Origin: Chitinophaga pinensis
GTDB lineage: Bacteria; Bacteroidota; Bacteroidia; Chitinophagales; Chitinophagaceae
Direction: 5' to 3'
Assembly (NCBI RefSeq): GCF_007896845.1
Contig: NZ_VOHS01000027.1
Span: 1-64,000 of the forward strand
Length of the DNA: 64,000 nucleotides
Numbering within the stretch: the stretch's first letter is position 1; every line of letters starts with the position of its first letter. Positions 22,574-50,036 of the stretch are shown one piece after another. Both the position numbers and the translations under genes were made by a program. The notes below the pieces were generated by a model. That model was given only the letters and a program-made list of their open reading frames with translations. It made no database searches and was not told where the DNA came from.

Positions 22574-24274
22574 ATGCGCAAGGTTTCATTATTACTGGTT
22601 ATGACCCTCACCAGTACAGCTTATGCTCAGCAGCGTCCTGTAAAGAACGACGCCTATCACTACAAAATAGAGAAAACGATCACTGCCTCACGTGGGGCGG
22701 TAGTATCAGCCCATCCGCTTGCGAGTCAGGCAGGATTACAGATGTTACAACAAGGAGGCAATGCAGTAGATGCGGCCATCGCCACACAGCTGGCACTGGC
22801 AGTTGTATATCCTGCTGCGGGCAATCTCGGTGGAGGCGGATTTATGGTCGCACATCTGAAAGATGGAAAGAATATAACGATCGATTACAGAGAAAAAGCG
22901 CCCGGCGCGGCCTCAAGAGATATGTATATCGACGCGAGTGGTAACGCCAATACCAGCCTGAGTCAGGACGGACATCTGGCAGCCGGCGTACCCGGCACCG
23001 TCGCTGGCCTGTTTGCCTCCCTACCCTATGCAAAACTGACGATACAGCAGCTGATTGCACCAGCCATCCTATTGGCAGAAAAAGGATTTGCCATTACGGA
23101 AAGAGAGGCCATATCACTGAACAGAACACAGGATAATTTCAAGCAACTGAATACACAGGGTAACGCTTTCATAAAAGCCACTCCGTGGAAAGCAGGCGAT
23201 ACACTCCTGCAGAAAGACCTCGCCGCCACCCTGAAAAGGATCAGAGACAATGGCAAAGCAGGTTTTTATGAAGGAGAAACAGCCCGTCTGATCGTTGCTG
23301 AGATGCAACGTGGACACGGCCTGATCACAGCAACGGATCTGAAAACATATGAAGCAAAAGAAAGAACAGCCGTTACCTTCGCCTACAAAAAATATAATAT
23401 CGTGACCATGCCATTGCCTTCCAGCGGAGGTATCGCTTTACAGCAAATGATGGGTATGGTGGAGAAATATCCTCTGCATGACTGGGGCTTCCATTCCGTT
23501 GCAGCTATGCACCTGATGATAGAAGCAGAACGGCGCGCTTACGCAGACCGTGCAAAGTTTCTCGGTGATCCTGACTTCGTGAAAGTACCTGTAAAACAGC
23601 TGACGGATCCTGCTTATCTGCAGACGCGTATGCAGGACTTCGATCTGAAAAAAGCCAGCGTCAGCACCGCTGTTGCTGCCGGCAATATATATGAAAGCAA
23701 AGAAACCACTCACCTCTCTGTGATGGATAACGAAGGCAACGCCGTTGCTGTTACTACCACGCTCAATGGCGGGTATGGCTCAAAGGTAGTGGTAGGTGGT
23801 GCCGGCTTTTTCCTGAACAATGAAATGGATGACTTTAGCGTAAAACCGGGTGTGCCTAATATGTACGGATTGATAGGTGCAGAGGCGAATGCAGTCGCAC
23901 CGGGTAAACGTATGCTCAGCTCCATGACACCTACTATCGTCCTGAAACAGGGTAAACCTTATATCGTAACAGGTACACCGGGTGGTTCCACCATTATCAC
24001 CTCTGTATTTCAGACCCTTCTGAATCTGCTGGAATTTAACCTCTCCGCACAACAGGCGGTTGATGCACCAAAGTTTCACCACCAATGGTTGCCTGATGAA
24101 GTCTATGTAGAACCAGACTTTGATCAGACGCCACTGAACGGTCTGAAGCAAATGGGGTATAAAATCGTACCGGGCAGCCCTATTGGTCGTGTGGAACTGA
24201 TCAGGATCAATGGAAAAGGACAACTGGAAGCAGTGGGCGACAAACGAGGTGACGACAGCGCTGCAGGTTATTGA
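22574..24274 (+). CDS. ggt: Gamma-glutamyltransferase / glutathione hydrolase
   Basis: N-terminal nucleophile hydrolase that cleaves gamma-glutamyl bonds, as in glutathione, in the periplasm. Signal peptide MRKVSLLLVMTLTSTAYAQ. The precursor cleaves itself before the catalytic threonine, here Thr378 in ESKETTHLSVMDNEG, giving large and small subunits. Other family blocks are GGNAVDAAIATQLAL, GNLGGGGFMV, the substrate-arginine region DYREKAPGAA, and RMLSSMTPTIV and GTPGGSTIITSVFQ in the small subunit. Length of 566 residues is normal. It heads a row of closely spaced genes: the next begins 21 bp after it. It may recycle gamma-glutamyl compounds, which is of interest given the GCS2 ligase at 42.8 kb. 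Confidence 0.95.
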   Translation: MRKVSLLLVMTLTSTAYAQQRPVKNDAYHYKIEKTITASRGAVVSAHPLASQAGLQMLQQGGNAVDAAIATQLALAVVYPAAGNLGGGGFMVAHLKDGKNITIDYREKAPGAASRDMYIDASGNANTSLSQDGHLAAGVPGTVAGLFASLPYAKLTIQQLIAPAILLAEKGFAITEREAISLNRTQDNFKQLNTQGNAFIKATPWKAGDTLLQKDLAATLKRIRDNGKAGFYEGETARLIVAEMQRGHGLITATDLKTYEAKERTAVTFAYKKYNIVTMPLPSSGGIALQQMMGMVEKYPLHDWGFHSVAAMHLMIEAERRAYADRAKFLGDPDFVKVPVKQLTDPAYLQTRMQDFDLKKASVSTAVAAGNIYESKETTHLSVMDNEGNAVAVTTTLNGGYGSKVVVGGAGFFLNNEMDDFSVKPGVPNMYGLIGAEANAVAPGKRMLSSMTPTIVLKQGKPYIVTGTPGGSTIITSVFQTLLNLLEFNLSAQQAVDAPKFHHQWLPDEVYVEPDFDQTPLNGLKQMGYKIVPGSPIGRVELIRINGKGQLEAVGDKRGDDSAAGY

Positions 24275-34958: not shown

Positions 34959-35297
34959 TGGTAAAATAAGAACTGTTCACTTTCCTTTCTGCTTACTTTC
35001 AGGTAAGCCGATGCATATATTATTATATGTATATCAATCTCTCATTGATAAAACCGAATAATTTGACAACGTACGCGGCTATAAATAAGGTATTTAAAAG
35101 TTTTCTATTCGATTTTTTAGAAATTACGAAGCAATTTCTTGAACAAACTCAATGAAATGGCTGTTAAAACTGGCAACTGTCCAAAATTGTATCCTATAAG
35201 CCTAATGAGATCAATCGCATAACAATTTGTTAATTTCAAGTTAAAATTCGTTAGGATTTATTCCCCAATTTTGCGTCATAAATCAAACTGCTCTTAT
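34959..35297. other. AT-rich intergenic region between ribBA and a TonB receptor
   Basis: About 340 bp of AT-rich sequence carrying the diverging upstream regions. No gene, strong hairpin or repeat is visible. A CAATTTTG box at about 35265 resembles a -7 element for the TonB receptor, with one mismatch. Confidence 0.45.
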
Positions 35298-38200
35298 ATG
35301 GGATTTAGAAGACTACTATTTACATTCATTGTTCTGTTTAGCACAATCACTTCGTTTGCGCAGGTAACTACCAGTAGTATGATTGGTAAAATTACCGGAC
35401 CTTCGAAGGAGGCGTTACCCGGGGCTACCGTTGTTGTGATCCATCTGCCCTCAGGTACCAAATACGGAACAACCACCGATGCGGAAGGTTACTACCGTAT
35501 CCCCAACATGAACGTTGGTGGTCCTTACAAAGTAACATCTACCTTTATCGGTTACACTGAATTCAACCAGAGCGATATCTTCCTCGCACTCGGTCAGCCA
35601 TTCAGACTGAACATCAGCCTTGGCGAAAAAGCCCAGGACATCAAAGAAGTACAAGTAGTTGGTCAAAGAAGCTCTGTCTTCAATTCCAGCCGTAAGGGTG
35701 CACAGACTACCCTGAACCGTACACAGGTTGAAGCACTGCCTTCAGTAGGTAGAAACCTGACCGACTTTGTACGTTTAACGCCACAGGCGAAACTGACCAA
35801 AGATGGTAGCGGTAACCAGACTATCTCCATCGCAGGTACCAGCAACAAGTACAACGCTACTTTCGTGGATGGTGCGGTACAGAACGATGTATTCGGTCTG
35901 GCTGAAAATGGTACCAATGGTGGTCAGATCGGTATTTCTCCGTTCAGCATCGACATCATTGACCAGTTCAATATCAACGTATCTCCGTTTGACGTTAAAC
36001 AGGGTGGTTTCGCCGGGGGCGCCATCAACGCCGTAACCAAAAGCGGTACTAATGAAATAGAAGGTTCTGCATACTACTTTGTACGTAATGAAAGTCTGGC
36101 TGGTAAAACACCTACCAAAGACGAAAGCAAACGTACCAAACTGGCAGATTTCTCTTCCAAAACATACGGTGCACGTTTAGGTGGTCCGATCATCAAGAAT
36201 AAACTGTTCTACTTCATCAACGCCGAGTGGCAGAAAGAAAACCGTCCGCAGCCATTCATCTACGACACCTATGCGAACGGTCGTGCTACTCCTGCATCAA
36301 GAGCTCAGCTGGATGCACTGGAAGCTAAACTGCGTTCAGCTGGTTACGATCCGGGAGGATACGAGACAACTGAAAATACATTGGATGGCCGCAAATTCTT
36401 CGCAAGAATCGACTGGAACATTAACGAATCCAACAAATTCACTATCCGTCACCAGTATACACACGGTGAAAGCGTAAGCCCTGGTAAATCCAGCGCCTCA
36501 ACTATCACCTTCTCTAACAAAGGTATCTCCTTCCCTTCTACCACCAATGCTACCACTGCTGAGCTGAAAAGCCAGTTTGGTAACAGGGCGTCTAACTCCC
36601 TGTTGTTAGGTGCTAACTTCGTAAGAGACGATCGTGGTATCACCGGTGCTCCATACACTTCAGTATTCATTTCAAGAGAATCTATCAGCTTCGGTACAGA
36701 AGAGTTTTCTGCAGCTAACCTGCTGAAACAGGATGTACTGACCCTGACCGATAACCTGGAACTGTACAGAGGTAAACACACCATCTCTTTGGGTACAAGT
36801 AATGAGTTCTATAATATGACCAACGTATTCATCGGTCAGAACTTTGGTTCTTATACCTTCGCTACCCTGGATGATTTCATGAATGATAAATCACCAACCC
36901 AGTACAACCGTTCATTCTCCGCTGTAGATAAAACTACCGGTGATAACACTAATGGTGCGGCTAAATTCAAAGCACTGCAATTAGGTCTGTATGCACAGGA
37001 CGACTACCAGGTAAGCGATCGTTTACGTTTATCACTGGGTGTTCGTGCTGATCTGCCTATGCTGCTGACTGATCCTGCTGTAAACAACGATTTCAATACC
37101 AACGTACTGCCTCAGGTAGTTGCTGCTGGTAAATGGGATATCAAAGGTGCACAGACAGGTGTTAAGCCAGACGCTAAGATCCTGCTGTCTCCACGCTTTG
37201 CCTTCAACTGGGACGTGAAAGGTGATCAGACTACCCAGATCCGTGGTGGTGCAGGTATCTTCACCAGCCGTATCCCTTATGTTTGGTTAGGTGGTATCTA
37301 TAATAACAACGGTGTTACCCTCGGTGGTATGAGACTCGCCTACGATTCTACCAAACCAACCGGCGGTACCAACAACCCGATTCCTTTTGTATCTGATCCT
37401 TATGCTCAGCCTAGCATTACTGCTGCGCCATCAGGTAAGATCGACCTGTTTGCAAAAGATTTCAAATTCCCACAGGTATTCAGAACCAGCATTGCTGTTG
37501 ATCAGAAATTACCCTGGGGTATGGTGGGTAGCTTAGAAGCAATCTATACCAAGAATATCAACAACGTTGCTTACTACAACCTGTCATACATCCCTGCTGG
37601 TACTAATGTAACCGGTAGCGGTAGTGACAATCGTCCTATGTGGAAGAATGTAGGTAAATCAGTTCTGGGTAACTACACAGATATCATGTATGCTGATAAC
37701 ACCAGCAAAGGTTATTCTTACAACCTGACTGCTCAGTTACAGAAAACCTTCTACGGTGGTTTCAGCGCCATGGCTGCTTACACTTACGGTCGCTCCAAGA
37801 GCATCAATGACGGTCAGTCTTCTCAGAACTCTTCTCAGTGGAGAGTTGCTAACATCAGAGGTCGTAACGATATCGACCTGGGTAACTCCATCTTCGATCT
37901 GGGTTCAAGGATCATCGCTTCTGTAACTTATAAGAAAGAATACCTGAAACACTTCGGTACGACTGTTACCCTGTATTACACTGGTCAGTCCGGCGAAAGA
38001 TTCTCTTATGGTTACAGAGATATTCCTAACACCAACATCGTTGGCGACTACAATGGTTCCAGCAGTGATAAAGGCCTGAACCTGATCTACATCCCAAGAA
38101 GTGCATCAGAGATCAACCTCGTATCTTATCAGGCTAACGGTGCTATCGTTACTCCGGAACAACAGTGGGCTGCATTGGATGCGTTCATCAACGGTGACAA

Positions 38201-38591
38201 ATACCTGAGCAAACACAGAGGTGAATATGCACCGAAGAATGGTCTGAGAACTCCGTTCACACACATCTTCGACCTGCACATTGCACAGGATATCTACATC
38301 ACCCAGAAAAATGGTAAACGTCATACTTTACAGATCTCCTTCGACGTATTCAACCTGGGTAACATGATCAATAATGACTGGGGTCGCGTATACTCTACCC
38401 GTACAGGTATGAGCTACAACAACTACGGTCTGATTGACTTCGTTGGTTTTGCTGCTAACGGAACTACTCCGACTTATAACTTTAAGGCTCCTACCAAATA
38501 TGACAACAAGACTGTTGCCCAGATCGATGATTTCGGTTTACAGTCTGCCCGTTGGCAGGGTCAGCTGGGCTTCCGCTATATCTTCAGATAA
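35298..38591 (+). CDS. TonB-dependent receptor with carboxypeptidase-regulatory domain
   Basis: A 1097-residue outer-membrane receptor. I chose the ATG at 35298, which puts a clean signal peptide at the N-terminus (MGFRRLLFTFIVLFSTITSFAQ); an in-frame TTG at 35271 would add nine unneeded residues. A CarboxypepD_reg domain follows (MIGKITGPSKEALPGATVVV, TTDAEGYYRIPNMNVGG), then a plug (GRNLTDFVRLTPQAKLTKDG, GGFAGGAINAVTKSGTNEIE) and a barrel ending LGFRYIFR. The plug sequence fits the OmpA-like/Oar subfamily of TonB receptors rather than SusC, and no SusD follows. Codon choice is more uniform than in neighbouring genes (frequent GGT, AAC, CTG), suggesting high expression. Confidence 0.94.
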   Translation: MGFRRLLFTFIVLFSTITSFAQVTTSSMIGKITGPSKEALPGATVVVIHLPSGTKYGTTTDAEGYYRIPNMNVGGPYKVTSTFIGYTEFNQSDIFLALGQPFRLNISLGEKAQDIKEVQVVGQRSSVFNSSRKGAQTTLNRTQVEALPSVGRNLTDFVRLTPQAKLTKDGSGNQTISIAGTSNKYNATFVDGAVQNDVFGLAENGTNGGQIGISPFSIDIIDQFNINVSPFDVKQGGFAGGAINAVTKSGTNEIEGSAYYFVRNESLAGKTPTKDESKRTKLADFSSKTYGARLGGPIIKNKLFYFINAEWQKENRPQPFIYDTYANGRATPASRAQLDALEAKLRSAGYDPGGYETTENTLDGRKFFARIDWNINESNKFTIRHQYTHGESVSPGKSSASTITFSNKGISFPSTTNATTAELKSQFGNRASNSLLLGANFVRDDRGITGAPYTSVFISRESISFGTEEFSAANLLKQDVLTLTDNLELYRGKHTISLGTSNEFYNMTNVFIGQNFGSYTFATLDDFMNDKSPTQYNRSFSAVDKTTGDNTNGAAKFKALQLGLYAQDDYQVSDRLRLSLGVRADLPMLLTDPAVNNDFNTNVLPQVVAAGKWDIKGAQTGVKPDAKILLSPRFAFNWDVKGDQTTQIRGGAGIFTSRIPYVWLGGIYNNNGVTLGGMRLAYDSTKPTGGTNNPIPFVSDPYAQPSITAAPSGKIDLFAKDFKFPQVFRTSIAVDQKLPWGMVGSLEAIYTKNINNVAYYNLSYIPAGTNVTGSGSDNRPMWKNVGKSVLGNYTDIMYADNTSKGYSYNLTAQLQKTFYGGFSAMAAYTYGRSKSINDGQSSQNSSQWRVANIRGRNDIDLGNSIFDLGSRIIASVTYKKEYLKHFGTTVTLYYTGQSGERFSYGYRDIPNTNIVGDYNGSSSDKGLNLIYIPRSASEINLVSYQANGAIVTPEQQWAALDAFINGDKYLSKHRGEYAPKNGLRTPFTHIFDLHIAQDIYITQKNGKRHTLQISFDVFNLGNMINNDWGRVYSTRTGMSYNNYGLIDFVGFAANGTTPTYNFKAPTKYDNKTVAQIDDFGLQSARWQGQLGFRYIFR

Positions 38592-38819: not shown

Positions 38820-39680
38820 ATGAGAAAGATCCTGCTAAGCGCAGTACTCCTTACATCATTGTTCGCTTCCTGTAAAAAGGAAGATGCACCCGTTACGGAA
38901 GATCCCATTCCAAAGGACCGGGTATTCTTTACACTCGACGGTGGTAGTATGAGAAATTACACCATGTTACAACTCGATGACAAACAACGGGTTGATTACT
39001 ACATAATAGCCGATCTTGACAAAAATTACTACTTCAGACAGGACCCGATATTCGATGCAGACGGTCGCATGACCGGCATGAACACCAATTCAGAAGCGGA
39101 TCCATCTGCCCTGTTGAAGACAGCCACATTCGCTTACAACAGCAACAATAAACTGATCATTATCAATCATATATCCCCTACTACCTGGAACCGTCTGAGT
39201 TACGACAGTCTGGCATACAATGGAGAGGGAAAACTGTCTGCTATCTATCATAGTAAACCGAACAACGACGTCACACCACAATTCGCCTTTTACAGCAAGG
39301 AGACGATGGTATGGGACAGCAAGAGCAACATCATTGCCAGACACATATTGCCCTTCTCCGGCGATACGGAAGGCAAGGATACCATCAGCACTGCTGCCTA
39401 CACCTATGACGACGCGATCAATTTCATGATAAAACCGGCGGATCTGTTTGTAATGGATCTAAACAATGGTATCACCTGGTTGTCCGCCAATAACCCGCTT
39501 ACGCAGGTAACAAGATACCCTTCGGGTGATTCGGTGGTAACAATCAGCAACTTATACACTTATGACAAAGGTAATTATCCGGATTCGGTCTTTCGCACCA
39601 GAAAGGCTACGCAAGGCGGTGCCGAAGTGTATAACAATACCAACAAATTTGCTATCAAGTATAAAATTCTCGACAAATAA
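38820..39680 (+). CDS. Lipoprotein with YD/RHS-like repeats (DUF4595-like), copy 1
   Basis: A 286-residue lipoprotein: signal MRKILLSAVLLTSLFASC with lipobox FASC, then KKED. The mature part contains repeated strand pairs of the type FDADGRMTGM, FAYNSNNKLIII, LAYNGEGKLSAIYHS and YTYDDAINF, resembling YD/RHS-like repeats and DUF4595-type domains of Bacteroidota. Such proteins sit on the cell surface, with unknown function. It is followed 13 bp later by a paralogue with the same layout, including the WLSANNPLTQVTRYPSGDSV block that corresponds to WMSSNNVLTKTTQYPDGSV in copy 2. The pair is probably one transcription unit that arose by tandem duplication. Confidence 0.78.
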   Translation: MRKILLSAVLLTSLFASCKKEDAPVTEDPIPKDRVFFTLDGGSMRNYTMLQLDDKQRVDYYIIADLDKNYYFRQDPIFDADGRMTGMNTNSEADPSALLKTATFAYNSNNKLIIINHISPTTWNRLSYDSLAYNGEGKLSAIYHSKPNNDVTPQFAFYSKETMVWDSKSNIIARHILPFSGDTEGKDTISTAAYTYDDAINFMIKPADLFVMDLNNGITWLSANNPLTQVTRYPSGDSVVTISNLYTYDKGNYPDSVFRTRKATQGGAEVYNNTNKFAIKYKILDK

Positions 39681-39693
39681 CTGCTCATAATAC

Positions 39694-40539
39694 ATGATTA
39701 GACTTCTACTAACTGCAGCTTTATTTATCACATGCTTTGCTTCCTGTAAGAAGGACGATGGTCCGCAGGGAGAAAGAGCTTTTTCCACCATGGAACCTCA
39801 GAACGATCGTGGTCTGAAAACCAGCTCCTACTCTTATGACAGACGTAACAGAGTAGCGATCTTCCAGACTTCAGATATAACAGCGGAAGATTTTCACTCT
39901 GAAATGATCCGTTTTGACACCGCAGGCAAAATCTCCTTTACATACGTTTCCAATGAGTTAGGTAGTGTAGGTGCGAAGGCGAAAGAAGTAGAGTATGATG
40001 CGGAAGGCAGAGTCGGAAAAGTTATATTATTCTCTTCTTACAGTGGATTGAAAGACGGTTATGACAGTCTTGCGTATGATAATGCCAACAAGATAGTAGG
40101 CATTTATCATTATGAAATAGACGGTGTAATTGCTCCTTATCTGTTGACACGCAAAGACCTCATGGTGAGAGATGCGAGAGGCAGAGTGACTGATCGCCGT
40201 GAGATACCGGTATACAGAAACACTGAAAGCACCCGTATCACGACCATTACCTATACCTATGATGAGAAGCCGAACTATAAAGGCGCGTCTTTTACGCACT
40301 TTATATTCGATACAGAAGAAAGCGCCGGCTGGATGTCTTCCAACAACGTGCTTACAAAAACGACACAGTATCCTGATGGCTCTGTACAGACTATCACGAA
40401 TTCCTATACTTACGATGGTGACAGCTTCGCAACATCCGTTAATCAGAACGAGCAGCTGACAAGAGGTGGCACGATGGTCTCCAACAAAACCACTTCGTAC
40501 AATCTGAAGTATACGTTCCTGCTTCCGAGCGATCTGTAA
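39694..40539 (+). CDS. Lipoprotein with YD/RHS-like repeats (DUF4595-like), copy 2
   Basis: A 281-residue paralogue of the preceding lipoprotein. Signal MIRLLLTAALFITCFASC with lipobox FASC, followed by KKDDG. Repeat units include SYSYDRRNRVAIFQTS, VEYDAEGRVGKVILF, LAYDNANKIVGIYHYE and YTYDGDSFATSVNQNEQ. The two copies are only moderately alike, so the duplication is old. The nearest upstream gene of known class is a TonB receptor, but a terminator and a promoter separate them. Function unknown. A terminator follows 55 bp after the stop. Confidence 0.78.
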   Translation: MIRLLLTAALFITCFASCKKDDGPQGERAFSTMEPQNDRGLKTSSYSYDRRNRVAIFQTSDITAEDFHSEMIRFDTAGKISFTYVSNELGSVGAKAKEVEYDAEGRVGKVILFSSYSGLKDGYDSLAYDNANKIVGIYHYEIDGVIAPYLLTRKDLMVRDARGRVTDRREIPVYRNTESTRITTITYTYDEKPNYKGASFTHFIFDTEESAGWMSSNNVLTKTTQYPDGSVQTITNSYTYDGDSFATSVNQNEQLTRGGTMVSNKTTSYNLKYTFLLPSDL

Positions 40540-40711: not shown

Positions 40712-41419
40712 ATGCTGGAACAACATTACAAATGGCATTCCCCGCACCTGGGCCATGAATTTGAAATGCTGGTGTATGGAGAAGAGGGCTATCCGCTGAT
40801 ACTCTTCCCTACTTCCATGGGAAGGCATTATGAACACAGGGACAGAGGCGTGATACAGGCATTGGAATGGTTTATCAACAACCAGCTGATCAAGGTATAC
40901 TGTCCGGATACAGTGGACGTACATAGCTGGTATAACATACACATCACCCCTGCTGAAAGAGCCCTTCATCATATCAGATATGACCGCATGCTCCGTCATG
41001 AGATACTGGAAAAAGTAACCGAAGAAACCGGCGTTCAACGCATTGCCGTAGCCGGTTGTAGTTTCGGTGGTTATCATGCAGCCAACTTCGCCTTCCGGTA
41101 TCCTGAAAGAGTGTCTTACCTGTTCAGCCTTAGCGGCGTTTTTGATGTAAAAACCCGGCTGAATGGCCATTATGACGACAATGTATATTATAATAACCCG
41201 GTAGATTTTATGCCGGCTAATCCGCATGAAGCCCTTTGGCGGATGGGAATTATCCTGGGCGTAGCTGAAAAAGACATTACCCGTAGCCAGAATGAGACAA
41301 TGTCCGGCATCCTTCATAATAAAGGCATTATGCACTGGCTGGACGTAAGGCCTAACAAGACACACGACTGGCCCACATGGCTGGAGATGCTGCCTTACTA
41401 CCTGTCCCTGATCAAATAG
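40712..41419 (+). CDS. Alpha/beta-hydrolase esterase, first gene of the ligase cluster
   Basis: A 235-residue cytoplasmic protein of the esterase D/putative-esterase type. The nucleophile elbow GCSFGGYH (about residues 114-121) carries the serine. The early block YGEEGYPLILFPTSMGRHYE replaces the usual oxyanion loop. The C-terminal histidine is probably in NKTHDWPTWLEMLPYYL. There is no signal peptide. It stands 81 bp before the ATP-grasp gene, in the same direction as four biosynthetic genes. In such a setting it might release the product from a carrier, trim an ester or edit mischarged products. The substrate is unknown. Confidence 0.85.
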   Translation: MLEQHYKWHSPHLGHEFEMLVYGEEGYPLILFPTSMGRHYEHRDRGVIQALEWFINNQLIKVYCPDTVDVHSWYNIHITPAERALHHIRYDRMLRHEILEKVTEETGVQRIAVAGCSFGGYHAANFAFRYPERVSYLFSLSGVFDVKTRLNGHYDDNVYYNNPVDFMPANPHEALWRMGIILGVAEKDITRSQNETMSGILHNKGIMHWLDVRPNKTHDWPTWLEMLPYYLSLIK

Positions 41420-41500
41420 CCTCTACTGTTGGCGCGAATATTGATTTTCATCGGCGGCTGTTGTAAACGACGGATAACCAAACAGTAAAACTCTTTACAG

Positions 41501-42622
41501 ATGAAAAAAATAGGACTCCTTTTCGGCCAGGAAAATGGCTTTCCGCAGGCCTTTATCGATCGTGTGAATGACAAACAGATAGACGGAATCACAGCAGAAG
41601 CAATATCCATCGAGAAAGTGATACAGGGTACCCCTTCCGGCTATGCCGTCATCCTTGACCGCATCTCTCAGGACGTACCCTTTTACCGCACCTGGCTTAA
41701 ACAGGCCGCACTTGACGGCACTGCGGTTATCAACAATCCTTTCTGGTGGAGTGCGGACGACAAATTCGTCAACAACGAACTGGCACACCGCACCGGTGTA
41801 AAAGTGCCTAAAACAGCCCTGATCCCTTCCAGAGATCTTCCGCTGAATACGTCAGACCAGTCCTTCAGAAACCTGGTCTATCCCTTTGACTGGGACGCCA
41901 TCTTTGATCACATCGGCTTTCCTGCCTACATGAAACCATACAATGGCGGCGGCTGGAAACATGTGTATAAAATACATGATCGTGAGGAGTTCTTTGCACA
42001 ACATGCCCGCACAGGTCAGCTGGTCATGATGCTGCAGGAAGAGATTAAATATCAATCTTATTACCGTTGTTATTGCATAGGCGGAAGATATGTGCGCGTA
42101 ATACCTTACGATCCATATCAGCCGGAAAATCAGCGTTACCTCACGGAAGATTCCGGAGATACCACTCTGCTGAACACCATTGCCGATCAGGTAGCACAGC
42201 TGAATCAATATCTTGGCTATGATTTTAACTCCGTTGAAATCGCTATCCAGAATGGTGTGCCTTATGTGATTGACTTCTGGAACCCTGCTCCTGAAACAAA
42301 TGAGAAAGTAATCGGTACCGAAAACTTCGAATGGGTGGTAGAAACAGCTGCTACCTACGCCATACAGCGTGCGCAACAGCAAACGTCCGGTACTGATAAC
42401 CTGACATGGGGCAATTTCCTGCAACATGCCATACAGGGACAACAAACCGCTATCGTACCCGGTGCAAAGAGAGTAGCCGCTAAAAAGCCTACTGCTGTCT
42501 CCCCTGCCAAACCGCCAAAAGATACTAAAACACTGAAGGAGCCCAAAGCGCCGAAAGTAGAAGAGAACGAAACACCGGCGAAAAAGACGCCTGTAAAGAA
42601 GACGAAGAAGAAAGAAAGCTGA
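41501..42622 (+). CDS. RimK-like ATP-grasp ligase with Lys/Pro-rich tail
   Basis: ATP-grasp enzymes join a carboxylate to an amine through an acyl-phosphate. Residues 1-320 form the fold: AVILDRISQDVPFYRTWLKQ, then KFVNNELAHRTGVKVPKTAL, the ATP-binding lysine and glycine-rich loop in PAYMKPYNGGGWKHVYKI, and the metal-binding block NSVEIAIQNGVPYVIDFWNP. This last block resembles RimK/carbamoyl-phosphate-synthase-like ATP-grasps. Residues about 325-373 are a disordered tail built from Lys, Pro, Ala and Thr (KKPTAVSPAKPPKDTKTLKE and so on), with strong positive charge, reminiscent of histone-like tails. The tail may bind an acidic partner or nucleic acid. It is followed by a separate promoter for the GCS2 gene. 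Confidence 0.85.
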   Translation: MKKIGLLFGQENGFPQAFIDRVNDKQIDGITAEAISIEKVIQGTPSGYAVILDRISQDVPFYRTWLKQAALDGTAVINNPFWWSADDKFVNNELAHRTGVKVPKTALIPSRDLPLNTSDQSFRNLVYPFDWDAIFDHIGFPAYMKPYNGGGWKHVYKIHDREEFFAQHARTGQLVMMLQEEIKYQSYYRCYCIGGRYVRVIPYDPYQPENQRYLTEDSGDTTLLNTIADQVAQLNQYLGYDFNSVEIAIQNGVPYVIDFWNPAPETNEKVIGTENFEWVVETAATYAIQRAQQQTSGTDNLTWGNFLQHAIQGQQTAIVPGAKRVAAKKPTAVSPAKPPKDTKTLKEPKAPKVEENETPAKKTPVKKTKKKES

Positions 42623-42738
42623 TTCAATCAGCCATCAGGAATTACGCATTAGTAATTGATATTTAAAGCCGTAACCGGCAGTTCCCGATTCTTGTCTCTA
42701 AATTATTCCCCATGTGAATTTCGACAGAAAAGAAAGAA

Positions 42739-42746
42739 TAACTTTG
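42739..42746 (+). promoter_or_regulatory. -7 box TAACTTTG ahead of GCS2 ligase
   Basis: Exact TAnnTTTG, about 100 bp before the ATG at 42844. The leader between them contains the AATTCCTAATT-type repeat. Confidence 0.5.
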
Positions 42747-42795
42747 GGATAATTAGGAAAAGTAATCCGGAATTGAAGTGTCAGCTTATCGAACT

Positions 42796-42834
42796 CAATT
42801 CCTAATTTGTAATTCCTGATTCCTAATTGAATTG
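42796..42834. repeat. Low-complexity AATTCCTAATT/AATTCCTGATT repeat in leader of GCS2 gene
   Basis: Three degenerate copies of AATTCCTRATT within 40 bp. Related runs occur at about 61876-61902 and 62797-62884. An origin as a dispersed intergenic element is likely. Confidence 0.6.
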
Positions 42835-42843
42835 AATCACCGC

Positions 42844-43944
42844 ATGCTCAACAACTTCACCCTCGGTATTGAAGAGGAATACATGGTCATGGACCCTCAG
42901 ACAAGAGAACTGAGATCTCATGAACAAAAGATCGTAGAACAAGCCCACAGGGTGCTCAGAGATAAAGTAAAGGCTGAGTTTCATCAGGCGGTTGTGGAAG
43001 TAGGCACGGAGGTATGCGCCAACATCGATGAAGCCTGCGAAGACGTATCTATGCTACGCAGGACAATTGCCAATATAGCAGGTGATCTGGGATACAGCAT
43101 CGGCGCTTCAGGTACACACCCTTTCTCCAAATGGCAGCTCCAGCATATTACCGACAATCCCCGTTACTTTGAGATCGTCAATGAAATGCAGGATGCAGCA
43201 CGCTCCAACCTCATCTTCGGACTACATGTGCACGTAGGTATGGAAAACAGAGAAATGGCCCTTCACATTGCCAACTCTGTACGCTATTTCCTGCCACACG
43301 TATTTGCACTTAGCACCAACTCCCCTTTCTGGGAAGGCCGTAACACCGGCTTCAAATCTTACCGCACCAAAGTATTTGATAAATTCCCCCGTACCGGCAT
43401 CCCCGATTACTTCGCCAGTATCGAGGAATATGACAGGTATATCCAGCTGCTGGTAAAAACCAATTGTATCGATAACGCCAAGAAAGTATGGTGGGACCTG
43501 CGGGTACACCCCTTTTTCAATACAGTGGAATTCCGCATCTGCGACGTACCGCTCACCGTACTGGAAACCTGTACCCTAGCGGCACTCTTTCAGGCTGTCT
43601 GCGCAAAGATTTACAAACTGCGCATGCAGAACCTCAACTTCATCATCTATAACCGTGCTCTGGTCAATGAAAACAAATGGCGGGCCTCCCGCTATGGTAT
43701 TGATGGTAACCTGATCGACTTCGGAAAAGAAATGGAAGTCAACGCCAGAGCATTGATCCATGAACTGCTCGACTTTGTGGACGACGTAGTGGATGAACTG
43801 GGCAGCCGTCATTATATACAGCGTACCCTTGATATTCTTGAAAATGGTACAGGTGCAGATCAGCAGTTAAAAGTATATACAGACACCAAAGATCTGGTAT
43901 CTGTTACCGACTTCATCACCAATAGCTTTCTGAAAGACTGCTAA
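42844..43944 (+). CDS. Carboxylate-amine ligase, GCS2 / YbdK type
   Basis: A glutamate-cysteine ligase family 2 protein (366 residues). Family signatures are TLGIEEEYMVMDPQT at the N-terminus (acidic metal site), HQAVVEVGTEVC, GASGTHPFSKWQ, FGLHVHVGM and WWDLRVHPFFNTVEFRICD. YbdK of E. coli shows weak glutamate-cysteine ligase activity, and other members join various carboxylates and amines. I chose the ATG at 42844; a TTG at 42832 is in frame but would add only four residues. It is the third gene of the cluster and ends 17 bp before the amidotransferase gene. Confidence 0.93.
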   Translation: MLNNFTLGIEEEYMVMDPQTRELRSHEQKIVEQAHRVLRDKVKAEFHQAVVEVGTEVCANIDEACEDVSMLRRTIANIAGDLGYSIGASGTHPFSKWQLQHITDNPRYFEIVNEMQDAARSNLIFGLHVHVGMENREMALHIANSVRYFLPHVFALSTNSPFWEGRNTGFKSYRTKVFDKFPRTGIPDYFASIEEYDRYIQLLVKTNCIDNAKKVWWDLRVHPFFNTVEFRICDVPLTVLETCTLAALFQAVCAKIYKLRMQNLNFIIYNRALVNENKWRASRYGIDGNLIDFGKEMEVNARALIHELLDFVDDVVDELGSRHYIQRTLDILENGTGADQQLKVYTDTKDLVSVTDFITNSFLKDC

Positions 43945-43949
43945 ACGTG

Positions 43950-43957
43950 TACCTTTG
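43950..43957 (+). promoter_or_regulatory. -7 box TACCTTTG directly before amidotransferase ATG
   Basis: Exact TAnnTTTG ending only four bases before ATG 43962, just after the stop of the GCS2 gene. If used, it would give a leaderless mRNA. Confidence 0.4.
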
Positions 43958-43961
43958 CAGT

Positions 43962-44807
43962 ATGATACCGACTAAGCAGCATTGGAAAATTGCCATCCTC
44001 GATATGTACGAGCAGGTGCCCAACGAGGGTATGCGCTGTATCCGGGAGATATTGACCAGCTATGCTGAAAAGCATGCGCTGGACATGGTATTCCATGAAT
44101 ATGAAGTGCGGATCGCACAAGAGGTACCTGATCTTTCCTATGATATCTATATCTCCACCGGCGGGCCCGGTAGTCCCTTAGACAGCGAAGGCAGCGAATG
44201 GGAAGCCCGTTACTTCCGGTTGATGGAAGAGATCAGGCAATTGAATAAAACAACTGACGATAAGAAACAGGTATTATTGATCTGTCACAGCTTTCAGCTG
44301 ATGTGCCGTTATCTGAAACTAGGTAATGTATGCCGCCGCAGATCACCTGCATTTGGTGTCTTTCCTGTACATAAAACAACAGCCGGTGAAGGCGAACAGG
44401 TGTTCAATGAATTACCTGATCCCTACTTCATCGTAGATAGCCGTAACTGGCAGGTCATAGAACTCGATCAGGAGCAAATGGCGACTACCGGTGCTACCGT
44501 CCTCGCATTGGAAAAAGAAAGACCGCATGTACCACTGGAAAGAGCCACAATGGCTATCCGTTTCAGCGATTATTGCATCGGTACACAGTTCCATCCGGAG
44601 GCAGATGCCACAGGTATGCGGATGTATCTCCTCCAACAGGAAAAAAAGAATCAGGTCATCACCAACTATGGTGCTGAAAAATACTATAGCATGCTGGAAC
44701 ACCTTTCCGATCCGGATAAAATCATGCTCACTCATGATGAATTCATTCCCGCATTCCTCGACAATGCTATTTTTAAACAGTCCGTTTCTGATAAAATTGA
44801 AGCGTAA
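43962..44807 (+). CDS. Class I glutamine amidotransferase-like protein
   Basis: A 281-residue protein with a GATase class I domain, which splits glutamine and passes ammonia to a synthetase. The catalytic cysteine is in VLLICHSFQLMCRY, where the usual GxCxGxQ is changed to ICHSFQ, and the His-Glu pair is in GTQFHPEADATGM. The early part has VPNEGMRCIREILTS and YISTGGPGSPLDSEGSEWEA. The C-terminal 70 residues (LLQQEKKNQVITNYGAEKYY to the end) extend past the GATase domain. It starts at ATG 43962; the in-frame GTG at 43947 would overlap the promoter-like box. Placed among three ligase-fold genes, it may provide ammonia for amide formation; alternatively it may act as a gamma-glutamyl hydrolase. 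Confidence 0.88.
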   Translation: MIPTKQHWKIAILDMYEQVPNEGMRCIREILTSYAEKHALDMVFHEYEVRIAQEVPDLSYDIYISTGGPGSPLDSEGSEWEARYFRLMEEIRQLNKTTDDKKQVLLICHSFQLMCRYLKLGNVCRRRSPAFGVFPVHKTTAGEGEQVFNELPDPYFIVDSRNWQVIELDQEQMATTGATVLALEKERPHVPLERATMAIRFSDYCIGTQFHPEADATGMRMYLLQQEKKNQVITNYGAEKYYSMLEHLSDPDKIMLTHDEFIPAFLDNAIFKQSVSDKIEA

Positions 44808-44847
44808 GAAGTGCAGTGTATCAGCCTATGGACTTTAACTGACAACC

Positions 44848-46047
44848 ATGATCCCTTCAATACGTACCGCATATAACCATCAGTTTACACACAAACAATA
44901 TCAGGATTTCCTTGCAGGTATTGCTGCGGAAGCTGGAGAAGCGCCTGTTTTTAAAGTCGCCGAAACACCTGTATTTATTCCTGCAGCGCTGACAGCCCAA
45001 CTCAAAAAAGCCTGCGATGAAATCATTGCCGTGATCATGCGGCCTGACTTTAAGGAAATGACACGTAATACCATTCCTCACCAGCTGAAAGTACCACACG
45101 AAAATGAGCATCCTCATTTCATAGTGATTGACTTTGCGGTGTGTCGCGATGAACAGGGAGCATTGACACCACGGCTGATCGAATTGCAGGGATTCCCATC
45201 GTTATATGCATTTCAGGAATTAATGGCCAGACAGTTCAGGACACATTTCAATATTCCTGATACAGTTAATAACTTCTTCGGCGGATTAAACGCAGACAGT
45301 TATTTTCAACTGTTGAAAGATGTGATCGTTGGAGAATATCAGCCGGAAGAGGTAGTATTGCTGGAAGTAAAACCACACGAACAGAAGACAAGGATCGATT
45401 TTTATTATACAGAAAAGCAACTGGGTATTCAACCTGTTTGCGTGACAGCACTCATACAGGAAGGAAAGAAACTGTATTATGAAAAAGAAGGTAGAAAAAT
45501 TCAGATCAAAAGGATCTATAATCGTGTGATATTTGATGACCTCCATCGTCAGCACGATAAACTGGGTAAACATGTCAGCCTGTTTCAGGATCTCGATGTT
45601 GAATGGATCACCCACCCGAACTGGTTTTATCGCATCAGCAAATACATATTGCCTTTCATACACAGTGAATACGCTCCGAAAAGCTGGTTCCTCCATGAAT
45701 TGCCTGTGATTCCTGCTGATCTCGAAAACTATGTGCTAAAGCCGCTTTTTTCTTTCGCCGGACAAGGTGTGCTGATAGACGTCACACAAGCAGATATTGA
45801 CAAGATCACTGATCCGGAGAACTGGATCCTGCAACATAAAGTACAATATGCGCCCGCTATAGAAACACCAGAGGGGCCGGCCTATTGCGAAATACGTATG
45901 ATGTATATCTGGCCTGATGGGAGTCCGACACCGATACTGGCTCACAATCTTGCCAGAATCAGTAAAAGTAAAATGATCGGTGTTACACAGGGCAAGCCGC
46001 AAAACTGGACCGGTGGCAGTTGTGCCTTTTTTGAAGATGCTTTATAA
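44848..46047 (+). CDS. ATP-grasp-like protein, last gene of ligase cluster
   Basis: A 399-residue protein without a name that I can assign with confidence. Its C-terminal third has the ATP-grasp signature ENYVLKPLFSFAGQGVLIDV (lysine at residue 298), then WILQHKVQYAPAIETPEG and YCEIRMMYIWPDG. An earlier block, TPRLIELQGFPSLYAFQELM at about residue 105-125, resembles the substrate-domain motif of glutathionylspermidine-synthase-like ATP-grasps. It may thus be a second peptide-bond or amide ligase. It lies 40 bp after the amidotransferase and its 3' end overlaps the convergent FAD oxidoreductase by 6 bp. Confidence 0.72.
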   Translation: MIPSIRTAYNHQFTHKQYQDFLAGIAAEAGEAPVFKVAETPVFIPAALTAQLKKACDEIIAVIMRPDFKEMTRNTIPHQLKVPHENEHPHFIVIDFAVCRDEQGALTPRLIELQGFPSLYAFQELMARQFRTHFNIPDTVNNFFGGLNADSYFQLLKDVIVGEYQPEEVVLLEVKPHEQKTRIDFYYTEKQLGIQPVCVTALIQEGKKLYYEKEGRKIQIKRIYNRVIFDDLHRQHDKLGKHVSLFQDLDVEWITHPNWFYRISKYILPFIHSEYAPKSWFLHELPVIPADLENYVLKPLFSFAGQGVLIDVTQADIDKITDPENWILQHKVQYAPAIETPEGPAYCEIRMMYIWPDGSPTPILAHNLARISKSKMIGVTQGKPQNWTGGSCAFFEDAL

Positions 46048-47670
46048 ACGCTGCTTATCCTTCTGCAGCTGTGCTTTCAATTGATCATAACTGATATCCT
46101 GTATTGCTTTTCTGCTGTCAATAGCCTGAATAGCAGCAGTAGCAGCGCTTTGTCCGAGAATCATGAATACAGGTTCCATCCGCACAGAGCCGTAAGCAAT
46201 GTGTGTACAGGACAGACATACAGGCGCCAGCAGATTGGTACATTCTGTCTTTTTCGGTACAATAGAACCATAGCTGATACGATAAGGAACAGGTATTTCC
46301 ACACCAATATCGCCTTCATTCTGTACAGTACCATCCTCTTTTACATAGCGCTGTGCATTGTGCGAGTCCAGTGTATAAGAACCCATACCGATAGCATCGG
46401 ATACCTTATTCCTGCCTAACACCTCATTTTCCGTCATCGTCTCCAATCCTTTCATACGTCTGGCTTCACGGATATACAGTTGATGTGGCCAGTTACCATT
46501 ATCCTTGAATTCGTCGCGGGAAAGTCCCCACTGTGCCATGCGTGTACGGATGCTGTCAGGTACACGCGGATCTGTTGCAATAAAGTATAACAATCCTTTC
46601 TGATAAGTGGTATGCGCTGCTATGATTGCTTTTCTTCTTTCATAAGAGGCATCCGGATAGTCATAGTTCATCCCGATATAATCCGTGCTGAAAGGCCCAT
46701 GATTATTGACATCCGTCTTATGATTAGGGATAGGATCAAATTTATTGAAGACTTCATTCCAGCCTGTTTCAAACACACGCAGCAGCAATGCATACTGTGT
46801 GGAGTCATAGTCCGCAGGGCGGGTAAATGGGATCCGGTTAGCCGGCAGATCTGTCAGACATAAACGGAAACAATACGCCTGAATACGTTTATCACCACTT
46901 CCCTTTTCACCGGGTGCCTGACCGGCAATCAATGGCAATAATCCACTTTTAGGATCACCGGGTATTTTATATGCGCTGACAGGTTTTTTAAAATGATGAC
47001 CGTGTTGGAATACGTCTGTCTGCACACCTGCCCAGGTTTCATTGAACTCACTACGTGCTTCCCGGCCAACACTATAAGAGATGCCTGCAGCGGCCATAAG
47101 ATCTCCTTCATAGGTAGCGTCTATAAACATCTTCCCTTTGAAGGTCTTTCCGCTAAGTGTTTTAATGGCTGTGATCTGTTGTCCTTTTTTTGTTACGCCT
47201 GTTTCCCTGTCCAGCCATTCATTGCGGTAGACTTTGATCTTATATTCTTTTACAAAGTCTTCAAATACCTTTTCAGCAGCGTGCGGTTCGAAGATCCACA
47301 TCGTGCGATCTGTACCGTCGATAGCAGGTGTTCCCTGCCCTCTGTTACCATAGGCGGATTGTTCCTGCCAGTTCCAGGATGCAGGTTGCTGATAGTGCAT
47401 GTAAATGCGATGATAGAATTCACGGGCGAGCCCTCCTATCACTTCTTTATTACCGGTATCAGTAAAACCGAGGCCGCCGGCTGATAGTCCGCCGAGATGT
47501 TGGTCAGGAGATACCACTACAACAGATTTATGCATTCTGCAAGCCTGTACGGCAGCGGTGATAGCAGCCGAGGTCCCGCCATAGATAACGATATCTGTTT
47601 CGCTGGTAGTCTGGGCAACAGTAGCAGAGAATGTCAGCAGGGAATAGCAGAGGAGCCATATATGCTTCAT
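46042..47670 (-). CDS. Exported FAD-dependent oxidoreductase
   Basis: A 542-residue flavoprotein of the FAD-dependent oxidoreductase type also found in xanthan-lyase annotations. After a signal peptide (to TVAQ, about residue 20), the dinucleotide-binding segment is DIVIYGGTSAAITAAVQACR, with an unusual GGTSAA loop in place of GxGxxG. It is followed by DQHLGGLSAGGLGFTDTG. Other blocks are KMFIDATYEGDLMAAAG and MRMEPVFMILGQSAATAAI-like sequence at the C-terminus (VRMEPVFMILGQSAATAAIQ). Export suggests carbohydrate-related oxidation in the periplasm, but no carbohydrate enzymes are adjacent. Confidence 0.88.
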   Translation of the reverse strand: MKHIWLLCYSLLTFSATVAQTTSETDIVIYGGTSAAITAAVQACRMHKSVVVVSPDQHLGGLSAGGLGFTDTGNKEVIGGLAREFYHRIYMHYQQPASWNWQEQSAYGNRGQGTPAIDGTDRTMWIFEPHAAEKVFEDFVKEYKIKVYRNEWLDRETGVTKKGQQITAIKTLSGKTFKGKMFIDATYEGDLMAAAGISYSVGREARSEFNETWAGVQTDVFQHGHHFKKPVSAYKIPGDPKSGLLPLIAGQAPGEKGSGDKRIQAYCFRLCLTDLPANRIPFTRPADYDSTQYALLLRVFETGWNEVFNKFDPIPNHKTDVNNHGPFSTDYIGMNYDYPDASYERRKAIIAAHTTYQKGLLYFIATDPRVPDSIRTRMAQWGLSRDEFKDNGNWPHQLYIREARRMKGLETMTENEVLGRNKVSDAIGMGSYTLDSHNAQRYVKEDGTVQNEGDIGVEIPVPYRISYGSIVPKKTECTNLLAPVCLSCTHIAYGSVRMEPVFMILGQSAATAAIQAIDSRKAIQDISYDQLKAQLQKDKQRL

Positions 47671-49046: not shown

Positions 49047-50036
49047 TTATTTCCTCAGGCATTCTTCAATTAATGTGCCGTAAAACTCCTGCAGGGTTTT
49101 ACCTGTGGCTCTTACCTGCTGAGGTACGATGCTGTTTTCAGACTGTCCCGGCATTGTGTTCACTTCGAGAAAGAACAGACGGTTGCTGGCTTCTTCCCAG
49201 ATAAAGTCCATTCTCACAATACCACGGCAGTTCAGTTTACTGTACAGCTTTTTAGCGGTCTCCTGAATCTGGGTGACAATTTCATTGGGAGCTTCTGCAG
49301 GAGTTACCTCTCTGGACACACCAGGTGTATATTTCGCTTCATAATCAAAGAATTCCTTGCTGCTGATGATTTCGGTTACCGGCAGAACGGTGAATTCACC
49401 ATTTGATCTGTAGAGGCCACAGGTGATCTCTCTTCCCTTCACGAACTCTTCTATAAGGATCTGTACGTCTTCATTGAAGGCTTTTTCGATCGCTGGCGCC
49501 AGTTCTTCCGCAGTATTTACTTTGGACATTCCGATGCTGCTGCCACCTTCAGCTGGTTTCACAAACACAGGCAGTTTCAGTTCCTGCAGGATAGCCTGCG
49601 TATCAAAAGGCTGATCTTTAAAAATATGCACCGACTTTGAAACATTTACAACACCAAGAGAGGCTACTACTTTGTTACAATAGCTCTTGTTGAATGTCAG
49701 CGCGGAAGTCACCATGCCACAACTGGTAAATGGAATACCCAGCATTTCAAAATATCCCTGCAGACGGCCATCTTCACCCGGTGTACCATGTATACCAATG
49801 AAAACCGCGTCAAATTTCACTTTATTTCCATTGATAGTCAATGTAAAATCGTTCCTGTCTACGGCGATCAGCTGACCATCGGAACCTGTGTAGTTCCATC
49901 CATCGCGGGTAATAGAAATCTTATAGACATTATACTTGCTGCTGTCAAGATGTTTCTCTATTACGGCTGCACTTTGAACTGAAATTACATATTCACCGGA
50001 GTATCCGCCGGCTACCAGGGCGATGTTCTTTTTCAT
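49047..50036 (-). CDS. ddl: D-alanine--D-alanine ligase
   Basis: Joins two D-alanines for peptidoglycan precursors. It is an ATP-grasp enzyme of 329 residues with N-terminal ALVAGGYSGEYVISVQSAAV, the DAVFIGIHGTPGEDGRLQGY block, SGMSYCNK-like core (TFNKSYCNKVVASLG), the ATP-binding loop VFVKPAEGGSSIGMSKV and the C-terminal metal site VRMDFIWEEASNRLFFLEVN and TMPGQSENSIVPQ. It heads the operon with the PASTA and rhodanese genes. On the minus strand a TAACTTTA box upstream is close to the -7 consensus. Confidence 0.96.
   Translation of the reverse strand: MKKNIALVAGGYSGEYVISVQSAAVIEKHLDSSKYNVYKISITRDGWNYTGSDGQLIAVDRNDFTLTINGNKVKFDAVFIGIHGTPGEDGRLQGYFEMLGIPFTSCGMVTSALTFNKSYCNKVVASLGVVNVSKSVHIFKDQPFDTQAILQELKLPVFVKPAEGGSSIGMSKVNTAEELAPAIEKAFNEDVQILIEEFVKGREITCGLYRSNGEFTVLPVTEIISSKEFFDYEAKYTPGVSREVTPAEAPNEIVTQIQETAKKLYSKLNCRGIVRMDFIWEEASNRLFFLEVNTMPGQSENSIVPQQVRATGKTLQEFYGTLIEECLRK

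Follow-up and report, generated by a model that had tools for sequence, protein, structure and literature searches.

ATP-grasp and GCS2 enzymes form amides via acyl phosphates. The enzyme folds concerned are already known, as is the concept of pathways that combine ATP-grasp ligases, GCS2 ligases and amidotransferases. Here, we describe such a combination in Chitinophaga pinensis, within a 64,000-nucleotide stretch (hereafter the window) comprising positions 1 to 64,000 of contig NZ_VOHS01000027.1 of RefSeq assembly GCF_007896845.1, a genome of 7.1 Mb in 96 contigs. Five genes in series encode an alpha/beta-hydrolase (hyd), a RimK-like ATP-grasp (AG1), a GCS2 ligase, a class I glutamine amidotransferase-like protein (GAT) and a second, circularly permuted ATP-grasp (AG2). 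We consider it fairly probable that these genes constitute one operon for a cytosolic pathway, independent of non-ribosomal peptide synthetases (NRPS), which links some three building blocks through amide bonds to give a small soluble conjugate. Among the systems that invite comparison, the N-acetylglutaminylglutamine amide (NAGGN) osmolyte system comprises a GNAT-ATP-grasp fusion, a class II amidotransferase and an M42 peptidase, and in the PuuA/PuuD system an amine is gamma-glutamylated and the glutamate is later removed. Iyer et al. (2009) reportedly described a tagging system with a permuted ATP-grasp and alpha-E, and that survey may describe the neighbourhood considered here.

Other described systems resemble single parts of the locus. 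Glutathione biosynthesis, like the locus, employs one ligase per fold, namely a GCS2-type GshA and a glutathione synthetase. The NAGGN system was considered and rejected, as neither a GNAT-ATP-grasp fusion nor a class II amidotransferase is found among the five genes; the one M42 peptidase scanned from related loci scored 36 bits against the TIGR03106 cut-off of 398. YgiC and YjfC are peptide-spermidine ligases according to one report (PMC12568646). The same report presents the ATP-grasp Cp1B of the fungal E-64 pathway (9cjn), which shares with the pathway proposed here an NRPS-independent amide assembly and an ATP-grasp of glutathione synthetase fold, but operates with other partner enzymes and in other organisms. 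A single RimK-type gene appears in a polysaccharide locus in a further report (PMC11036162). In the literature found, titles and openings of abstracts do not name the five-gene set, and an earlier description is possible.

The original prediction, made from the sequence alone, held that five genes in series combine three amide-forming ligase folds with a class I amidotransferase and a hydrolase, and on this point open reading frames (ORFs), family matches and models agree. All five ORFs were confirmed at 40712-46047 on the + strand, intact and free of internal stops; the start codons are the first in frame as listed by the ORF tool, and true starts may differ. The genes are as follows.

40712-41419, + strand: hyd, 235 amino acids, alpha/beta-hydrolase of the PF00756/PF00561 kind
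41501-42622, + strand: AG1, 373 amino acids, RimK/LysX/ArgX/Ddl-like ATP-grasp ligase with a Lys/Ala/Pro-rich C-terminal tail
42832-43944, + strand: GCS2, 370 amino acids (listed from TTG), YbdK-family carboxylate-amine ligase of gamma-glutamyl type
43947-44807, + strand: GAT, 286 amino acids (listed from GTG), class I glutamine amidotransferase domain
44848-46047, + strand: AG2, 399 amino acids, circularly permuted ATP-grasp with the glutathione synthetase/GspS/YgiC fold (predicted model)

From hyd to AG2, the listed starts leave gaps of approximately 80, 210, 2 and 40 bases.

Conservation and co-occurrence of the gene set

Conserved linkage in relatives, the absence of which would have refuted the original prediction on its own terms, was found: among 20 long loci taken from other genomes, 13 show the full order hyd-AG1-GCS2-GAT-AG2, alongside the strong genome-wide co-occurrence described below. 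The remainder comprise two loci with GCS2-GAT-AG2, two with hyd-AG1-GAT-AG2, and one each with AG1-GAT-AG2, GAT-AG2 and AG2 alone. When genes on the strand of AG2 are considered in 80 named loci, the full order is seen in 20, AG1-GCS2-GAT-AG2 in 11, GCS2-GAT-AG2 in 3, GAT-AG2 in 32, hyd-AG1-GCS2-AG2 in 1 (with GAT on the opposite strand) and AG2 alone in 13; AG2 thus has some other member of the set on its strand in 67 of the 80. AG2 was found in all 60 genomes of the genus itself and in 9 of 39 other genomes of the order, and across 30 short loci of the genus, one of which is that of the window, GAT adjoins AG2 in 30 and GCS2 lies within reach in 29. Within Chitinophagaceae, the genes between GCS2 and GAT vary among groups of loci. 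In a scan of genome contigs, the best 80 of 586 confirmed places carry titles of Bacteroidota or uncultured bacteria, the closest named loci among them being from Chitinophaga and others from Pedobacter and Mucilaginibacter, and a tblastn search against plasmids gave no plasmid copies of AG1, AG2 or GAT.

Co-occurrence was assessed in a phylum sample of 296 Bacteroidota genomes, the same set being searched for every family, with E thresholds of 1e-3 (AG2), 1e-40 (AG1, GAT), 1e-20 (GCS2 and the family X introduced below) and 1e-25 (hyd); at these thresholds, divergent copies of GAT or hyd may have been missed. Some of the sample genomes also contributed loci to the search profiles, and genome handles and positions for the co-occurrence and linkage counts were transferred by hand. 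AG2 is present in 92 genomes, AG1 in 108, GCS2 in 103 and GAT in 70, and 89 of the 92 AG2 genomes also hold AG1, while 87 hold GCS2; AG1 and AG2 thus co-occur in roughly a third of the species sampled. The most frequent combinations are all four families (50 genomes), AG2+AG1+GCS2 (34), GCS2 alone (9), AG1+GAT (8) and AG1+GAT+GCS2 (7), followed by AG2+AG1+GAT (4), AG1 alone (4), AG2+GCS2 (2), AG2+AG1 (1) and AG2+GAT+GCS2 (1). A small control within one genus (g48 of family f25) agrees with this: AG2, GAT and GCS2 occur together in three genomes (G238, G250, G314), two of which, G238 and G314, also have AG1, and six others (G119, G123, G154, G164, G180, G266) lack all four families.

Physical linkage was counted in the 84 genomes that hold AG1, GCS2 and AG2. 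All three lie on one contig within 7 kb in 46 genomes, and all three are apart (on different contigs or more than 20 kb from one another) in 21, a figure that draft contigs may inflate. For this count, second fragments of GCS2 (G347) and AG2 (G328) were omitted, a fragment beside GCS2 in G162 replaced a longer one, and the X list excluded G233 (379 bits). Because 21 genomes hold all three genes apart, the three appear to be kept together without linkage, and such retention of a scattered set is a stronger argument for a shared pathway than adjacency.

AG1 occurs without AG2 in 19 of the sampled genomes. In all ten of those inspected, an ORF of about 455 amino acids (family X) adjoins AG1, and in nine it lies between AG1 and GAT. 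A profile of X gives strong matches (at least 789 bits) in 15 of the 296 genomes, which are exactly the 15 with AG1 and GAT and without AG2; X lies no more than 3 kb from AG1 in all 15 of them and from GAT in 14. X takes the place of AG2 in the gene set. Its matches to the Pfam domains CP_ATPgrasp_2 and CP_ATPgrasp_1 are weak to moderate, exceeding a CP_ATPgrasp_2 cut-off in two of four copies scanned, and it retains R-x-D and E-x-N residues as invariant R135, D137, E149 and N151. X is likened to the CP_ATPgrasp_2 (PF14403) ligases; X and AG2 are only weakly similar to each other (hhalign probability 13%, E 0.002, for a single pair). Neither AG2 nor X was found in four AG1 genomes (G105, G183, G256, G383), where AG1 scores are weak, at 232-359 bits. 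AG2 or X accompanies AG1 in 104 of 108 genomes, and GAT and/or GCS2 is present in 103 of those 104 (the exception being G308); on account of these proportions, the core consists of AG1 and a permuted ATP-grasp, together with GCS2 and/or GAT. Since GCS2, GAT and hyd are each lacking in many of the genomes in which AG1 and a permuted ATP-grasp are retained, the core proper is the two ligases.

Features of the five proteins

AG2 has no family match in Pfam or NCBIfam. Its model (predicted local distance difference test score, pLDDT, 91) is a circularly permuted ATP-grasp, for which the best Foldseek match is a GspS-like protein (E 3e-14), followed by the yeast, human and plant glutathione synthetases, YgiC and YjfC. 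In these alignments AG2 and the GspS/YgiC/YjfC group are 12-17% identical, and the sequence profile of AG2 matches YgiC weakly (E 0.04). When AG2 is compared by eye, without superposition, with the R-x-D...E-x-N residues of Cp1B, D95 and E112 are invariant, the Arg is absent and Gln114 stands for the Asn. AG2 shares its modelled fold with GspS, YgiC and YjfC, but differs from them in this apparently altered motif and in standing beside two further ligases and GAT in one operon.

GCS2, the sole match of its family in the genome, scores 214 bits on PF04107 (cut-off 21) and 539 bits on NF010039 (cut-off 371), which places it among the YbdK-type carboxylate-amine ligases. The original prediction had held a glutathione-like thiol to be plausible, in which case GCS2 would serve as GshA and AG1 or AG2 as GshB. 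Such roles would suit the distant relationship of GCS2 to plant GshA and the eukaryotic glutathione synthetase fold of AG2. Nevertheless, GCS2 scores far better on YbdK/PRK13515 models than on GshA models, and the second ATP-grasp, GAT and the hydrolase would be superfluous to the synthesis of a thiol. The genome encodes BshC, and on that ground it probably makes bacillithiol. In a survey of thiol genes, gshA-B are placed outside Bacteroidetes and bshA-C within (PMC6282198). The thiol proposal is weakened by BshC, and we now regard it as very improbable.

AG1 matches TIGR00768 (RimK family alpha-L-glutamate ligase) with E 4e-8 and 33 bits, short of the cut-off of 143 bits, and its model (pLDDT 76, with a disordered tail) finds Ddl, RimK and ArgX as top Foldseek matches, LysX also being similar. 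On the evidence of the modelled fold, AG1 is a RimK/LysX-like ATP-grasp that resembles the RimK, LysX and ArgX ligases in fold but stands outside the RimK family proper by score. A Lys/Ala/Pro-rich, histone-like C-terminal tail is frequent in AG1 (42434-42622 in the window, start approximate). Tails of 48-86 residues are found in the window and in loci L040, L042, L048, L049, L053, L058, L096, L114, L128, L147 and L148; the median is 35 residues (56 of 72 copies measured), and tails are not present in all copies. The copy in L034 carries a tail of 131 residues that resembles, by eye, a helix-hairpin-helix domain. Two AG1 matches contain one internal stop each (G300:C16:18395-19315 and G209:C67:9209-10138) and are perhaps decaying copies; G316, which is congeneric with G300, has no AG1 match.

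These properties of AG1 bear on a different proposal, namely that the genes modify a protein or peptide tag, to which AG1 would add amino acids in the manner of RimK, which AG2 and GCS2 would extend or cap, and which GAT or the hydrolases would remove. RimK and ArgX, which are among the closest structures to AG1, act on proteins or carrier proteins, the Lys-rich tails common in AG1 copies could bind or receive a modification, and 15 of 101 loci carry an M42 peptidase gene 5' of GAT-AG2. Against this stand the score of AG1 far under the RimK cut-off and the tails that are not universal, and no carrier or tag protein appeared among the representatives of ten neighbour families identified by Pfam, a scan that a small tag could escape because ORFs shorter than 90 amino acids were excluded from clustering. 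Tag modification consequently seems to us unlikely.

GAT scores 34 bits on PF00117 (cut-off 23), and its Cys113/His216/Glu218 triad is invariant in 15 aligned rows. The nucleophile elbow of class I amidotransferases is usually C-x-G-x-Q. GAT departs from this pattern, having C-H-S-F-Q in the window and C-[HY]-S-[FY]-[QE] in 109 of 109 copies from the window and the fetched loci; because the elbow Gly is replaced by Ser, GAT may not be a standard amidotransferase. A protein of class I amidotransferase fold, together with GCS2, would suit the logic of amine or polyamine utilisation, whereby GCS2 gamma-glutamylates an amine and GAT later removes the glutamate, as in PuuA/PuuD. Yet at the thresholds used GCS2 is lacking in 12 of the 70 genomes with GAT, and GAT in 45 of the 103 with GCS2, whereas what stays constant in the set is its pair of ATP-grasps; in view of the 12 genomes, undoing the work of GCS2 is not likely to be the sole task of GAT. 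Furthermore, the scanned neighbour representatives, the only place searched for them, include no oxidase or aldehyde dehydrogenase. Amine utilisation thus appears decidedly doubtful as an account of the locus.

The hydrolase matches PF00561 and PF00756, both just above cut-off, and its elbow GCSFGGY (Ser117) and His218 (within HDWP) are unchanged across 9 aligned copies. In 51 genomes of the phylum sample hyd shares the strand of AG1 at a distance of at most 3 kb; this count is based on 56 genomes with strong or linked copies, hand-picked from the 125 in which hyd was matched. A second PF00756 esterase occurs in 36 of 101 loci, in most cases upstream of hyd or AG1 and divergent from the operon, as in L052:5217-5975(-) and L084:4934-5755(-), with no signal peptide apparent by eye; its place is occupied by other genes in this window.

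Surroundings of the locus

The 3' end of AG2 overlaps by 6 bases with the end of a convergent gene for a flavin adenine dinucleotide (FAD)-dependent oxidoreductase (46042-47670). Matches to sigma-70-like promoters are no more numerous than in shuffled sequence (14 against 15.2). Terminator-like sites number 14 against 6.4 in shuffles (standard deviation 3.1), all on the minus strand, and none is found on the + strand of the operon, including after AG2. The gamma-glutamyltransferase gene (PF01019) that had been reported about 18 kb away is indeed located at 22574-24274, 18.1 kb from start to start and 16.4 kb from gene to gene.

Upstream, on the same strand, the window contains a gene for a CarboxypepD_reg outer-membrane beta-barrel receptor (35271-38591), whose family has upstream members in 24 of 101 loci; it was left out of the pathway parts because it belongs to a large superfamily. 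Two mutually similar lipoprotein-like genes (about 30% identical) follow the receptor at 38820-39680 and 39694-40539. Three kb downstream of the operon, a D-Ala-D-Ala ligase, which is a further ATP-grasp, is encoded at 49047-50036 in a block that includes rhodanese-, PASTA- and ferredoxin-like genes and recurs in loci of the genus; this block is presumably housekeeping. In other genomes the M42 peptidase noted above is accompanied, in 14 loci, by a UbiA-like membrane protein and a small lipoprotein-like protein directly 5' of GAT-AG2 (including L064, L065, L076, L081, L082, L100 and L104, several of them from Sediminibacterium). These three proteins were rejected as pathway parts, being the local synteny of one group. 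The representatives of the ten neighbour families scanned include no exporter, carrier protein or NRPS, which would fit an internal metabolite.

The proposed pathway

Several observations weigh against a joint pathway. The co-occurrence p values are naive in that shared ancestry is ignored, and the case within genus g48 is small. At the respective thresholds, GAT is lacking in 37 of 92 AG2 genomes (E 1e-40) and GCS2 in 5 of 92 AG2 genomes and 8 of 15 X genomes (E 1e-20), while in the remaining 7 X genomes GCS2 is unlinked and lower-scoring (341-441 bits); GAT, GCS2 and hyd are each absent or unlinked in many genomes. AG2 occurs without AG1 in G240, G250 and G316, the locus of G250 keeping GCS2-GAT-AG2 with no AG1 remnant found, and G233, an AG2 genome, has a weak X match (379 bits). 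Moreover, the chemistry of AG2 may be altered, because the Cp1B-type Arg is absent and Asn is changed to Gln. The 13 of 80 named loci in which AG2 has none of the other four genes on its strand, several of them on short contigs, and the 21 of 84 genomes in which AG1, GCS2 and AG2 are apart would also suit a collection of unrelated enzymes that are mere neighbours. However, those 21 genomes retain all three genes despite their separation, and AG2 and strong X are mutually exclusive in the company of AG1 and GAT; hence we give the notion of mere neighbours very little credence.

For the joint pathway that we favour, we infer the following reactions and their order. AG1 and AG2, as the core, would activate carboxylates as acyl phosphates and then couple them to amines, and GCS2 would most likely contribute a gamma-glutamyl unit. 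Through its Cys-His-Glu triad, GAT could liberate ammonia from glutamine to supply a terminal amide, or alternatively cleave a gamma-glutamyl amide. The hydrolase, and in many relatives the second PF00756 esterase, may act in processing, turnover or recycling of the product. Since none of the five proteins has an N-terminal signal peptide apparent by eye, we take the pathway to be cytosolic.

Among proteins of known activity, those most closely related to AG2 are glutathione synthetase, GspS and YgiC/YjfC, which couple the carboxylate of a peptide with glycine or a polyamine. Because of these known reactions a small conjugate is favoured, in which an acid or amino acid, probably with a gamma-glutamyl unit, would be joined to an amine or ammonia. 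The proposal of an amide or peptide biosynthesis system accordingly stands as regards the conserved gene set and the ligase folds; an amidated peptide and a gamma-glutamyl metabolite would both be candidate products. More tentatively, it is possible that about one third of the sampled Bacteroidota species make an unrecognised small molecule, plausibly a gamma-glutamyl peptide-amine conjugate in the role that glutathionylspermidine or a peptide osmolyte has in other bacteria. Its synthesis would depend on a two-ligase core whose permuted ATP-grasp is AG2 in some lineages and X in others, the two being mutually exclusive and equivalent in function, and GCS2 and GAT would be tailoring enzymes specific to particular lineages. 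AG2 represents an ATP-grasp family that neither Pfam nor NCBIfam has named, and, if the proposed pathway is correct, a large bacterial phylum would possess a widespread, nearly uncharacterised amide-forming pathway, the core genes of which are kept or lost as a set.

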